A stretch of 64,000 bases of DNA from Neisseria yangbaofengii (GTDB lineage: Bacteria > Pseudomonadota > Gammaproteobacteria > Burkholderiales > Neisseriaceae): contig NZ_CP062976.1 in assembly GCF_014898075.1 (NCBI RefSeq), forward strand, positions 620,001 through 684,000, in the 5' to 3' direction. Below the pieces are notes generated by a model that saw only the letters and a list, made by a program, of their open reading frames with translations, searched no databases and was not told where the DNA came from. Positions 55,104 to 58,461 of the stretch are shown piece by piece; within the stretch, counting starts at the first letter, position 1; each line of letters opens with the position of its first letter. Position numbers and translations under genes: made by a program.

Positions 55104-56423
55104 ATGCACACATTGTCGGCAGAAGTGCGCTTGGCGCAGGCCAAAGCGCGGTTGCGTCACAGCCGCCGCCGGGCAACCGGCTTGCTGCTGGCCGCTTGCG
55201 TATTGTTTGTGTTGTCCTCGCTGTATCTCAAGCATTATGCATGGCTGGCGTATGTGAAGGCCTTTTCCGAAGCGGCAATGGTGGGCGCACTGGCCGATTG
55301 GTTTGCCGTGATTGCGCTGTTCAGACGGCCTTTGGGTTTGCCAATTCCGCATACCGCTATTTTGCCGCGTAATCAGGCGCGTATTGCTGATGAATTGGGC
55401 AGATTTATTGAGAATAACTTTTTGCAGGGCAAACCGATTGCCTTAAGGGTGTATCAGGCACAACCAAGCGACAAGCTGCTGGGCTGGCTGGCGGGCGAAT
55501 CGGTACGCAGCCAATGGTTGCCGCGGGTAGCCAAGCAGATTCCGCTGTTACTGAATATCGCCAAGCCCGGGCAAGTGGCGCGCTTTTCCGGCATGATGCT
55601 GGCGCAGCAATACAACGGCGAGAAAATAGCCAAAACACTTTCGGACGGCCTGATTCTGCTCAAAGCACACGGTATGCACGAAACTCTGTATTACGGTTTA
55701 TTGAAGCAATTACGTCGTTGGTTGAAAAATCCCGAAACGCGCGAAATGCTGGAGCAAAACCTACGGGAATGGGCAACCAAAATTGAAAGCGATGCACCGA
55801 GCACATGGGATAAATTCAAAGCTGCGCTGAAATCGACGGTGGTGGATAAAGTTGACGACTGGGCGGCCGCCAAAGCCTTGGATTGGGCAGACGGTTATTT
55901 GGCCGCCGCTATGCAGGGTGGCGATAATGCCATGCGTCGCCGTTTTGACGGGCAATACGATGCGGTTATCGAACGGCTGCAAACTTCACGCCTGTGGCAC
56001 CGCCGTTTGGAAGCGGCCAAAATGCAGATTGCCGAATCGCCGGCCTTGCAAAACAGCTTGGAAGATTTTTGGAAAGGGCTGCAAAACTGGGCAGAGAATG
56101 ATGTAGCCAAAACCGATTCGTTGTGCGCCGCGCAATTGCAAAAGCTGCTCGATCACATGCTGGCACAAGCCGAAACCTATCCGCAGTTTATGCGCAGAGT
56201 CGATGTGCGCCTGTCGCTGATGGTGCGTGATTTCGTCATGCGCTACAAAGAGCAGGCTGCGCAGTTTGTAGCGGATAAAGTGAAAAGTTGGGACAGCGCG
56301 CAAATGGTGGAAAAACTCGAACTCAGCGTCGGCAAGGATTTGCAGTATATCCGTATCAACGGCACACTGGTCGGCGGCTTGGTCGGGCTGGTGATTTATG
56401 TGGTGTCGCAATGGTTGGGGTAG
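55104..56423 (+). CDS. DUF445 family membrane protein (YjiN-like)
   Basis: 439-residue protein with a membrane segment near the N-terminus (TGLLLAACVLFVLSSLYL, residues 30-47), the conserved DUF445 motif AMVGALADWFAVIALFRRPLG, a long helical middle part and a C-terminal helix (NGTLVGGLVGLVIYVVSQWLG). This is the usual topology and length. Function unknown in the family. It stands alone between the AT-rich region and a terminator. A DUS is embedded in the coding sequence near 55321. Confidence 0.9.
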   Translation: MHTLSAEVRLAQAKARLRHSRRRATGLLLAACVLFVLSSLYLKHYAWLAYVKAFSEAAMVGALADWFAVIALFRRPLGLPIPHTAILPRNQARIADELGRFIENNFLQGKPIALRVYQAQPSDKLLGWLAGESVRSQWLPRVAKQIPLLLNIAKPGQVARFSGMMLAQQYNGEKIAKTLSDGLILLKAHGMHETLYYGLLKQLRRWLKNPETREMLEQNLREWATKIESDAPSTWDKFKAALKSTVVDKVDDWAAAKALDWADGYLAAAMQGGDNAMRRRFDGQYDAVIERLQTSRLWHRRLEAAKMQIAESPALQNSLEDFWKGLQNWAENDVAKTDSLCAAQLQKLLDHMLAQAETYPQFMRRVDVRLSLMVRDFVMRYKEQAAQFVADKVKSWDSAQMVEKLELSVGKDLQYIRINGTLVGGLVGLVIYVVSQWLG

Positions 56424-56436
56424 CAAAATAAGCTTG

Positions 56437-56472
56437 AGGCCGTCTGAAAAGCAAATGACTTTCAGACGGCCT
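56437..56472. terminator. DUS-pair terminator after DUF445 gene
   Basis: AGGCCGTCTGAAAA and CTTTCAGACGGCCT separated by a short loop, 14 bases after the stop. Confidence 0.8.
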
Positions 56473-56859
56473 TGTTTATATTATTGTGAATCAAACAAAG
56501 AAAAGGTATTCAAGGGAGAAGTTGCTTTTATTGAAACGGTTCTGAGCATTTATTGACTAAATTGCTTTGGTGAATCATTCGTTTAGAAATTTTCAGACGG
56601 CCCGGGATAAGATTTGATGGCGGTGTGCTGTTTATTTCCATCTTATTGGAAATGGTTATTAAAAGTGGCAAATTCCGTCATGTACCGAAAAAAAGTAACA
56701 TCATACTTGACGAGAATCACAAAAAGATGACAAAAAAAGGCATATTGCCGAGATTGTGTGCCATCAGGTGATGCGGATATTTAATGACATATGGGTATTT
56801 TTATATATTTTTATTTTTAAAACAATCTATTGTAAATTTATTTAAGGAATTCAAAGTTT

Positions 56860-56875
56860 TGGCACGATATTTGCT
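56860..56875 (+). promoter_or_regulatory. Sigma-54 (RpoN) promoter
   Basis: TGGCACG-N4-TTGCT, an exact match to the sigma-54 consensus, with the -24 GG (56861-56862) and -12 GC (56873-56874) separated by ten bases as required. Predicted transcription start is near 56886. The nearest gene downstream in this direction is beyond two terminators and the opposite-strand ackA, so the transcript appears to be non-coding. Confidence 0.85.
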
Positions 56876-57016
56876 TGATAGTCAGTAGAAACAAAACGGT
56901 GCGCAAGAAAATATCGGCAATCTGTTGGGTTTCTTCATGAAAAAAGCAAACATATTACGTGGAAATAATCAAACGGGAAACCGTTACAACACTCAGCAAT
57001 AAAATTGCGGGAAAAC

Positions 57017-57044
57017 GTCATCACCATCTTCGGATGGTGATGAC
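57017..57044 (+). other. Perfect 12-bp hairpin with TTCG tetraloop
   Basis: GTCATCACCATC-TTCG-GATGGTGATGAC. It lies in the stretch downstream of the sigma-54 promoter and lacks a T-run, so it looks like a structured RNA element rather than a classic terminator. Confidence 0.75.
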
Positions 57045-57139
57045 ATCTACAGAATAAAAAAAGTAACACGAATCTTACCAAATTAAAACAACAGGATTTA
57101 AAAATCCGATTATCTCCCTAAAACTATTATGAAAACGCA

Positions 57140-57197
57140 AGGCCGTCTGAAAAGCGAAGTCTGTATCATACCCGCTTGAAAGACGGCCGCTTTTTTT
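57140..57197 (+). terminator. Candidate terminator of the sigma-54 transcript
   Basis: GGCCGTCTGAAAAGCG and CGCTTGAAAGACGGCC pair except for a central internal loop, then GCTTTTTTTG supplies the T-run. Confidence 0.6.
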
Positions 57198-57221
57198 GCC
57201 TAATCTGATTTGCCTGAATAC

Positions 57222-57256
57222 AAAAAAGCCCTGTTGCCGGCAACAGGGCTTTTTTT
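57222..57256. terminator. Bidirectional terminator, 3' of ackA
   Basis: AAAAAAGCCCTGTTGCC and GGCAACAGGGCTTTTTT form a near-perfect stem nine bases from the ackA stop, with A and T runs on each side, so it can act from both strands. Confidence 0.92.
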
Positions 57257-57264
57257 CGGATGAA

Positions 57265-58461
57265 TTACAGGCCGCTTAAGCGTGCAGTGTCGTGTGCAAT
57301 CATCAATTCTTCATTGGTTGGAATCACCACGGCAACGGCTTTGCTGTCGGCAGTAGTAATTACACCGGCGTTGCCGAAACGGGCAGCCAAGTTGGCGTCT
57401 TGGTCGATGTTCAAGCCCAAGAAGCCCAAGTAGCCCAACACTTTGCTGCGGATTAAGTCAGAATTTTCACCGATACCGCCGGTGAAGGCCAATACGTCCA
57501 AACCGCCTGCAGCAACGGACATGCTGCCGATGTATTTCGCCAAACGATAGCAGAATACCTCCAGTGCCAATACCGCGCCGGAGTGGCCGTTGGCCGCTTC
57601 TTCTTCGATGGTGCGGCAGTCGCTCGACAATTCAGACAAGCCCAGCAAGCCTGATTTTTTGTTCAACATATCGGTTACTTGCGCGATGGTCATATTGGCG
57701 TTTTCAGCCAAGAAACCGAATACCGCAGGGTCAATGTCGCCCGAACGAGTACCCATTACCAAGCCTTCCAGCGGGGTTAAGCCCATGCTGGTGTCTTGGC
57801 ATACGCCGTTGGCAATGGCGGCAATCGAGGCACCGTTACCCAAGTGAGCAATCACCATGCGCAAATTGTTTTTGTCTTTACCCAAGAAGCGGGCGGCTTC
57901 GTCAGACACATAGCGGTAGCTGGTGCCGTGGAAACCGTATCGGCGCAAGCCGTATTTGCTGTACAACTCGCGTGGTACGGCATACATATAAGCGCGTTCC
58001 GGCATGGTTTGGTGGAACGCGGTGTCGAATACGGCCACGTTTGGCAGGCCTTTGAAAATGTTTTGTGCGGCGCGCACACCCAACAGGTTGGCAGGGTTAT
58101 GCAATGGCGCCAACGGGATGCATTTTTCGATGCCGGCAATCACGTCTTCGGTAATCAAAGTCGATTCGCTGTATTCTTCGCCGCCGCTGACAATGCGGTG
58201 GCCGATGGCGGCGATTTGGCTGTCGAAGCCGTGTGATTTCAATTCTTCCATCAAGGCTTCAACTGCGCCGGTGTGATTCGGGTTGGCAGCCAATTCAACT
58301 TTGTGTTTTTCACCGTTGAATTTAAAGGTGATGTAGGCATCAGGCAAGCCCAGCTTTTCAGCCAAGCAGCTCAGCAGCACGCCGCCGCTGTCGTTATCCA
58401 AAACAGCACCTTTTAACGATGAACTGCCGCAGTTTAAAACCAAAATCAATTTTTGAGACAT
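57265..58461 (-). CDS. ackA: Acetate kinase
   Basis: 398-residue ASKHA-family kinase that makes ATP from acetyl phosphate. It begins SQKLILVLNCGSSSLKGAVLD (phosphate-binding loop), and has HRIVSGGEEY, VFDTAFHQTMPERAYMYAVP, RRYGFHGTSYRYVS, IAHLGNGASIAAI and FTGGIGENSDLIR, all intact. No phosphotransacetylase gene is adjacent. It is the first and only gene of its unit here, with a perfect terminator. Confidence 0.97.
   Translation of the reverse strand: MSQKLILVLNCGSSSLKGAVLDNDSGGVLLSCLAEKLGLPDAYITFKFNGEKHKVELAANPNHTGAVEALMEELKSHGFDSQIAAIGHRIVSGGEEYSESTLITEDVIAGIEKCIPLAPLHNPANLLGVRAAQNIFKGLPNVAVFDTAFHQTMPERAYMYAVPRELYSKYGLRRYGFHGTSYRYVSDEAARFLGKDKNNLRMVIAHLGNGASIAAIANGVCQDTSMGLTPLEGLVMGTRSGDIDPAVFGFLAENANMTIAQVTDMLNKKSGLLGLSELSSDCRTIEEEAANGHSGAVLALEVFCYRLAKYIGSMSVAAGGLDVLAFTGGIGENSDLIRSKVLGYLGFLGLNIDQDANLAARFGNAGVITTADSKAVAVVIPTNEELMIAHDTARLSGL

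Follow-up and report, generated by a model that had tools for sequence, protein, structure and literature searches.

We asked what is made from a sigma-54 promoter that lies in an 841-bp gap of a Neisseria genome (the source genome, a single contig of 2.65 Mb). All positions refer to the window, the whole 64-kb stretch of DNA analyzed here. The gap (56424-57264) extends from the end of a DUF445 gene at 56423 to ackA, which is encoded on the minus strand with its 3' end at 57265, and the longest open reading frame listed within it comprises 52 amino acids. The earlier note on this sequence had described the stretch as free of genes, with ackA on the opposite strand, and both statements were confirmed. 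The -24/-12 element (TGGCACGATATTTGCT, 56860-56875, plus strand), which had been read there as TGGCACG-N4-TTGCT with exact GG-N10-GC spacing, is indeed a perfect match. Two relatives carry the element with one mismatch each, as TGGCATG/TTGCT in N. weixii and as TGGCACA/TTGCT in N. iguanae.

The element had also been considered rare by chance, and the genome-wide counts agree with this view. Allowing one mismatch to TGGCACG-N4-TTGCW, we found 47 sites (3 perfect ones and 44 others) compared to 23 for the reversed pattern. The three perfect sites are that of pilE, the locus at 56860, and one inside open reading frames. Inspection of all 47 sites placed 45 inside open reading frames of at least 70 codons, some of which may not be genes (the smallest comprise 90, 94, and 114 codons), and only the pilE site, upstream of the pilin gene, and the site at 56860 outside. 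A longer pattern, TTGGCACG-N4-TTGCTTGATAG, occurs with at most two mismatches twice in the source genome, again at pilE and at 56860, while its reversed control does not occur. Across 46 Neisseria genomes, the same search returned 14 places in 12 genomes (control, 0). Twelve of these are located 152-287 bases before a pilin motif, and the remaining two are the locus studied here in the source genome and in N. weixii. The promoter shares with the pilE promoter of its own genome an identical -24/-12 element and an identical CTTGATAG downstream of it. The two promoter regions align with a score of 37 compared to a best score among 300 shuffles of 34 in the source genome and 37 in N. weixii, the control being a weak one that consists of single-base shuffles of A+T-rich DNA. 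These sequence comparisons suggest that the promoter is likely, although unproven, a duplicate of the pilE promoter. A descent of the RNA body from pilE was rejected, as only the promoters align and the transcript parts align no better than single-base shuffles, again a weak control. Immediately 3' of pilE, the source genome carries a second pilin-like gene (locus L001, 2259-2756).

The resemblance to pilE extends to the region upstream of the promoter. Two activator-like sites of the type TGAC-N7-GTCA are located on the plus strand: site 1 (TGGCAAATTCCGTCA, 56666-56680), which reads TGACAAATTCTGTCA in both N. weixii and N. iguanae, lies at -194 from the -24 element, and site 2 (TGACAAAAAAAGGCA, 56728-56742) lies at -132, 62 bp past site 1. 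Paired sites of this type are 61-62 bp apart at both the RNA promoter and the pilE promoter of the source genome, a comparison that has to be read with the origin of the consensus in mind, since it was drawn from pilE promoters, including that of the source genome, and is not independent of them. The pilE sites are positioned at -204/-143 in the source genome and at -206/-144 in N. weixii; those of the RNA locus are found at -194/-133 in N. iguanae and at -196/-136 in N. weixii, where the second one matches 6 of 8 positions. First-order random sequence of 260 bp contains two sites matching 7 of 8 positions at a frequency of 0.0002-0.0012. Among the 47 promoter-like sites, only pilE and the RNA locus are accompanied by a pair of activator-like sites within 300 bp, while five others are accompanied by a single one.

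The source genome encodes one strong candidate for the protein that would bind these sites. A single sigma-54 activator gene scores 237.9 bits, with a runner-up at 25.8 bits. Its product consists of receiver, sigma-54 activator, and HTH_8 domains, and the gene is preceded by a histidine kinase gene and followed by a SAM_MT (RsmJ-type) gene. Because this gene order equals that of the nps-npa-rsmJ loci in the available parts of PMC6528607, we take the activator to be the PilR-like Npa. According to the same parts of that study, pilE of N. elongata requires Nps/Npa and RpoN and is the sole Nps/Npa-controlled pilus gene among those tested, and a requirement of pilE for IHF is cited there as well (PMC6528607). 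Since the sites are shared with pilE and no other strong activator gene is present, we infer that Npa acts on the predicted RNA promoter. The sigma factor itself is widespread: a match to the sigma-54 DNA-binding domain above the cut-off was obtained in 42 of the 46 Neisseria genomes, in the source genome within a frame of 461 amino acids, and no match to this domain in G017, G018, G031, and G034, the last two of which are incomplete genomes. In G015 and G020, just the last 40 positions of the domain are left, which fits reports that pathogenic Neisseria retain a remnant of rpoN.

Downstream of the promoter, we predict a non-coding transcript of about 310 nt (56886-57197, plus strand), whose start is inferred from the position of the -12 element. 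Its predicted fold is far more stable than that of shuffled sequences: 56886-57200 gives z -6.60, a value that not one among 100 shuffles attained, and 56886-57060 gives z -6.92. Fold prediction yields four stem-loops on the plus strand: SL1 (56887-56934), with 85-98% identity between species; SL2 (56972-56985), which reads AACGG-GAAA-CCGTT; SL3 (56992-57011); and SL4 (57017-57044), a 12-bp stem with a TTCG loop that the earlier note had already described and that we recovered at the same place. The later hairpin with a T-run was confirmed as well. This terminator-like hairpin (57141-57197, plus strand), recognized from sequence and fold, is formed by GGCCGTCT at 57141-57148 and its inverted counterpart AGACGGCC at 57181-57188, followed by GC and by seven T residues at 57191-57197; it was missed by a simple terminator scan. 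A search of the whole window against Rfam placed a tRNA alone above its gathering score, and the RNA locus matched no family. Just past the RNA terminator, a symmetrical hairpin (GCCCTGTTG..CAACAGGGC, 57229-57255) with T-runs on both strands is probably the terminator of ackA; both relatives, N. weixii and N. iguanae, have it, too.

How far does this RNA extend within the genus? Strong blastn relatives were found in 3 of the 46 Neisseria genomes, namely the source genome, N. weixii (85% identity), and N. iguanae (81%); blastn matches of any kind occur in 21 genomes, and outside the three species all are at most 61 nt long. A covariance model, R1, returned 30 places in 19 of the 46 genomes at E <=1, three of them real (E <1e-50) and 27 at E >=0.003. 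The 27 weak places were rejected as homologues, since none has a GG-N10-GC site (at most three mismatches, between -120 and +40), while all three real ones have one. An exact 21-base pattern retrieved two records from a species-genome collection, those of N. weixii and N. iguanae, with the query's own records possibly excluded. The promoter and the RNA are thus retained in the close relatives. The earlier note had expected such an RNA to be specific to the commensal branch. It is not general among commensals, since the RNA is found in 3 of the 46 genomes compared to an RpoN domain match in 42. The RNA rather appears to be made by a few animal-associated Neisseria from a near copy of the pilin switch.

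Between the three species, the predicted transcript is 82-86% identical over its whole length. Among its parts, the linker reaches a pairwise identity of 77-94%, the SL2-SL4 region one of 89-93%, the terminator one of 79-91%, and the tail one of 76-81%. Identity is 76-87% in the activator block, 31-83% in the stretch from the -12 element to the start, 54-73% in the upstream gap, and 44-71% in the flank past the terminator; for ackA, it is 60-69% at 4-fold sites and 76-80% at all third positions. Judged from these regional identities against the ackA sites and the gap flanks, constraint on SL1-SL4 and on the activator block is clear and that on the RNA tail is weak. Compensatory changes had been suggested as a check on the 57017-57044 stem, and the three sequences contain no two-sided change in this stem and three one-sided ones that preserve pairing. 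Across the whole structure, none of the changes in the three sequences is two-sided, four are one-sided, and 99.1% of the base-pair cells keep pairing. Overall, the promoter and the conservation are well supported at the sequence level. The pilE-like sites, the one strong activator gene, and the conservation in three species argue for a non-coding RNA that depends on sigma-54 and is linked to the pilus regulators, much as had been supposed.

A candidate partner of the RNA emerged from its linker. We searched three genomes for complements of the linker (18 nt, at most three mismatches) and obtained 12 places including the RNA itself in each, as well as 12 for the reversed control, so that the search by itself proves nothing. 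The one place common to all three genomes is the middle of an intergenic unit of 110 nt, here called X, in which an open stretch (GUUUUCCCCGUAAUGUGUUU) separates a 5' hairpin from a final hairpin with a T-run behind it. X has matches in 43 of the 46 Neisseria genomes, many of which carry one or two additional weaker copies. A TATAAT box, the core AGTGAGTAAGACGTTTTCCCCGTAATGTGTTT, and a run of eight T residues are invariant in all 10 aligned X copies (of 30 loci at hand). A sibling, Y, has the core GACGTTTTCCCGCAATGTATT, and the source genome, N. weixii, and N. iguanae each possess one X-type and one Y-type core. X is located after a pseudouridine synthase gene and Y between the genes for an inositol monophosphatase and an RNA methyltransferase. 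Neither matched a named sRNA in the available parts of PMC4423775, PMC4176332, and PMC4148029, and we found no function of the family in print. Two loci (L226 in G026 and L227 in G006) contain tandem sibling X-type cores about 260-300 bp apart in like orientation, with an LspA/IspH-like side one way and a pseudouridine-synthase-like side the other, these genes being named by eye. One of the weak places returned by the covariance model R1 (L088) is an X-family copy in antisense reading.

Two segments of the RNA are complementary to the cores of this family. Antisense segment 1 (AAACATATTACG, 56948-56959, plus strand) pairs with nt 59-70 of X through 12 pairs including one G-U in the source genome and through 13 in both relatives, at -22.2 kcal/mol including flanks. 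Antisense segment 2 (ATTGCGGGAAAACGTC, 57004-57019, plus strand), which lies partly within SL3 and SL4 and is identical in all three species, is perfectly complementary to the Y core over 16 nt, and the final 11 nt of the segment (GGGAAAACGTC) pair with nt 48-58 of X. The complementarity to these putative sRNA cores is thus conserved, over 16 nt to Y in three of three species and over 23 nt in two pieces to X. When the RNAs were co-folded, segments 1 and 2 paired simultaneously with 23 contiguous nt of X (48-70), with SL2 and SL3 looped out.

None of 20,000 dinucleotide shuffles reached 16 nt against the Y core (the longest reached 13), and among 42,650 sampled windows of 27 nt on both strands of the 64 kb, segment 2 was the unique best binder of Y, at -32.4 kcal/mol. 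The match to X alone is modest, since 62 of 20,000 shuffles reached 11 nt and 53 of the 42,650 windows bound X as well as segment 1 did. In a looser control with whole X and Y including tails, 86 of 5,000 shuffles reached 11 nt for X and none reached 16 nt for Y (longest 15). For the first 165 nt of the RNA, net binding energies with X and Y, respectively, were -18.5 and -17.5 kcal/mol in the source genome, -23.4 and -19.6 kcal/mol in N. weixii, and -21.6 and -15.5 kcal/mol in N. iguanae. Net of unfolding, 2 of 150 shuffles bound X and 1 of 150 bound Y as well as the RNA of the source genome. N. weixii and N. iguanae have one more antisense copy close to the 3' end, a degenerate one with -11 to -14 kcal/mol; it is eroded in the source genome and was left out of the count. 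Pairing with pilE mRNA was rejected, too: whole-RNA energies were ordinary, and neither the linker nor the A-rich part gave a signal in N. weixii. In the source genome, the linker reached -18.7 compared to a 5% line of -18.3, and the A-rich part, at -18.2, lay on the line. None of the three exact antisense motifs is present at the pilE locus.

The data lead us to lean towards the view that the locus gives rise to an RNA of about 310 nt that is non-coding, depends on RpoN and Npa, is made together with pilin, and acts as a sponge for X and Y. An RNA controlled in the same way might act directly on mRNAs, through its linker or through a UCUCCCU stretch near the 3' end, with a merely secondary match to X and Y. 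The stretch (UCUCCCUAAAA) is identical in the three species, and its complement TTTTAGGGAGA occurs in the leader of a cold-shock-protein-like gene in the source genome (L176, 1501-1511) and in N. weixii (L173). However, some 75 nt separate this place from the start codon, the leader is conserved anyway, no comparable cold-shock-leader place was recognized in N. iguanae, and a target search short of genome-wide found no mRNA with complementarity like that to Y. Complements of the stretch amount to 20 places in the three genomes, three of them the RNA itself, compared to 10 for the reversed pattern, and the cold-shock leader is the one other orthologous place recognized. UCUCCCU as a seed is therefore a weak lead, and we regard direct mRNA control as unlikely. 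Pairing could also work in reverse, with X and Y controlling the level of the RNA, which would then have another job; complementarity is directionless, and X is found in 43 of the 46 genomes compared to 3 for the RNA. Nevertheless, the RNA contains no conserved frame to be regulated, and it has a separate match for each of the two siblings, which makes this direction of control improbable.

A further question is which strand of X and Y is transcribed. Rfam family RF02861 (IR_84, Neisseria sRNA 84; gathering score 51) matches the strand opposite to the one adopted here, with 131.5 bits for Y, 216.1 bits for another copy in G020, and 37-45 bits, under the gathering score, for X copies. If X and Y were transcribed from this strand, the stretch in common with the RNA would be mere similarity and not antisense pairing. 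On the opposite strand, a T-run lies beyond the 5' hairpin in 2 of 7 members of the X/Y family; for X on the adopted strand, a simple scan found no terminator, and the sole promoter-like match is on the opposite strand. Against this, the adopted strand has a hairpin and a T-run at the end of all 7 members, a terminator of Y that the scan detected, and an invariant -10 box (TATAAT) and T8 in 10 of 10 copies of X. For these reasons, we prefer the strand opposite RF02861 and consider transcription from the IR_84 strand somewhat more improbable still than reversed control, although the RF02861 strand, the two T-runs, and the scan results for X lead us to hold the sponge function less firmly. RF02861 was apparently modelled on the strand opposite the terminators (Y-type L222 1466-1654 and L225 1520-1704; X L230 ~1540-1655). 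Alternatively, the RNA locus might be no more than a leftover duplicate of the pilE promoter whose transcript is idle or noise. The promoters align, the transcripts do not, and the tail and the start region are weakly conserved, as would be expected in that case, but the retention of the activator block (76-87%) and of SL1-SL4 (77-98%) compared to most flanks (44-73%) renders it very improbable. Least probable of all is a gene for a 21-aa peptide (MKKANILRGNNQTGNRYNTQQ, 56937-57002): its frame is intact in the source genome and in N. weixii, yet the ATG is lost in N. iguanae, and the frames of N. weixii and the source genome differ by four non-synonymous codon changes and one synonymous change.

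We therefore return to a sponge for X and Y and outline how it might operate. Nps and Npa, the PilS/PilR-like pair, would switch on transcription by the RpoN holoenzyme via the two upstream sites, and phosphorylated Npa and RpoN, aided by a bend of the A+T-rich spacer, would make the RNA while pilE is on. The RNA, probably together with Hfq, would then bind X and Y at their open cores: segment 2 would pair with 16 nt of Y, and both segments jointly would pair with 23 contiguous nt of X. X and Y might thereby be blocked, sequestered, destabilized, or degraded. The mRNAs under control of X and Y would be released once pilE is on. We infer that the RNA is transcribed, that Npa binds, that X and Y are expressed from the adopted strand, that the duplexes form in the cell, and that the targets of X and Y are affected, and both the sponge function and the X/Y strand are predictions. 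Among the roles proposed earlier, coupling to pilus regulation finds support in the pilE-like promoter and sites, whereas coupling to nitrogen or carbon status finds none here.

More tentatively, the RpoN/Npa regulon may have a second member, an RNA sponge made from a copy of the pilE promoter that captures X and Y and thereby ties pilus sensing to a global post-transcriptional network. If true, pilin sensing would also reset post-transcriptional control in commensals, whose RpoN has so far been studied through pilE, and a promoter duplication within one branch of the genus would apparently have given rise to a sponge. In addition, the complementarity suggests which segment does the work in an RNA family that has matches in 43 of the 46 Neisseria genomes. 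Both sRNAs that depend on sigma-54 and sponges for sRNAs have precedents, and GlmY of E. coli has a sigma-54 promoter. In the open-licence papers searched, we saw no report of a Neisseria sRNA under sigma-54, RpoN, or Npa control, nor of the X/Y family as sponge targets.

Several known systems resemble parts of this proposal, as far as the available parts of the respective papers go. Control of pilE in commensals (PMC6528607) is alike in its GG-N10-GC element, single PilR-like activator, nps-npa-rsmJ order, distal sites, and A+T-rich spacer; it differs in its output, which is pilin there and a predicted non-coding RNA here. Like X and Y, NmsRA/NmsRB, also known as NgncR_162/163 (PMC5362039, PMC9973317), are sibling RNAs with UC-rich open segments. 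However, they lie between dsbB and lrp and fold into three stem-loops, while X and Y have two main hairpins and other neighbours, and the gene neighbourhood and the stem-loops rule out that X and Y are these siblings. In Campylobacter jejuni, CjNC110 and CjNC140 (PMC10470494) likewise form a pair of sRNAs that is held together by GA-rich and CU-rich segments, but other genes are involved, and no pilin-linked promoter is reported in the parts of that paper available to us. GlmY (PMC7073468) is comparable as a decoy sRNA that relieves the fate of another sRNA, although it works via the protein RapZ and not by base pairing with a sibling. The nearest known system in action is QrrX of Vibrio cholerae (PMC9732341), a dedicated RNA that pairs with the sibling sRNAs Qrr1-4 and inactivates them. 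QrrX is activated by the LysR-type QrrT, whereas in our case it is the sponge that would depend on sigma-54 and be coupled to pilin; the two are likened by their action and not by their sequence.
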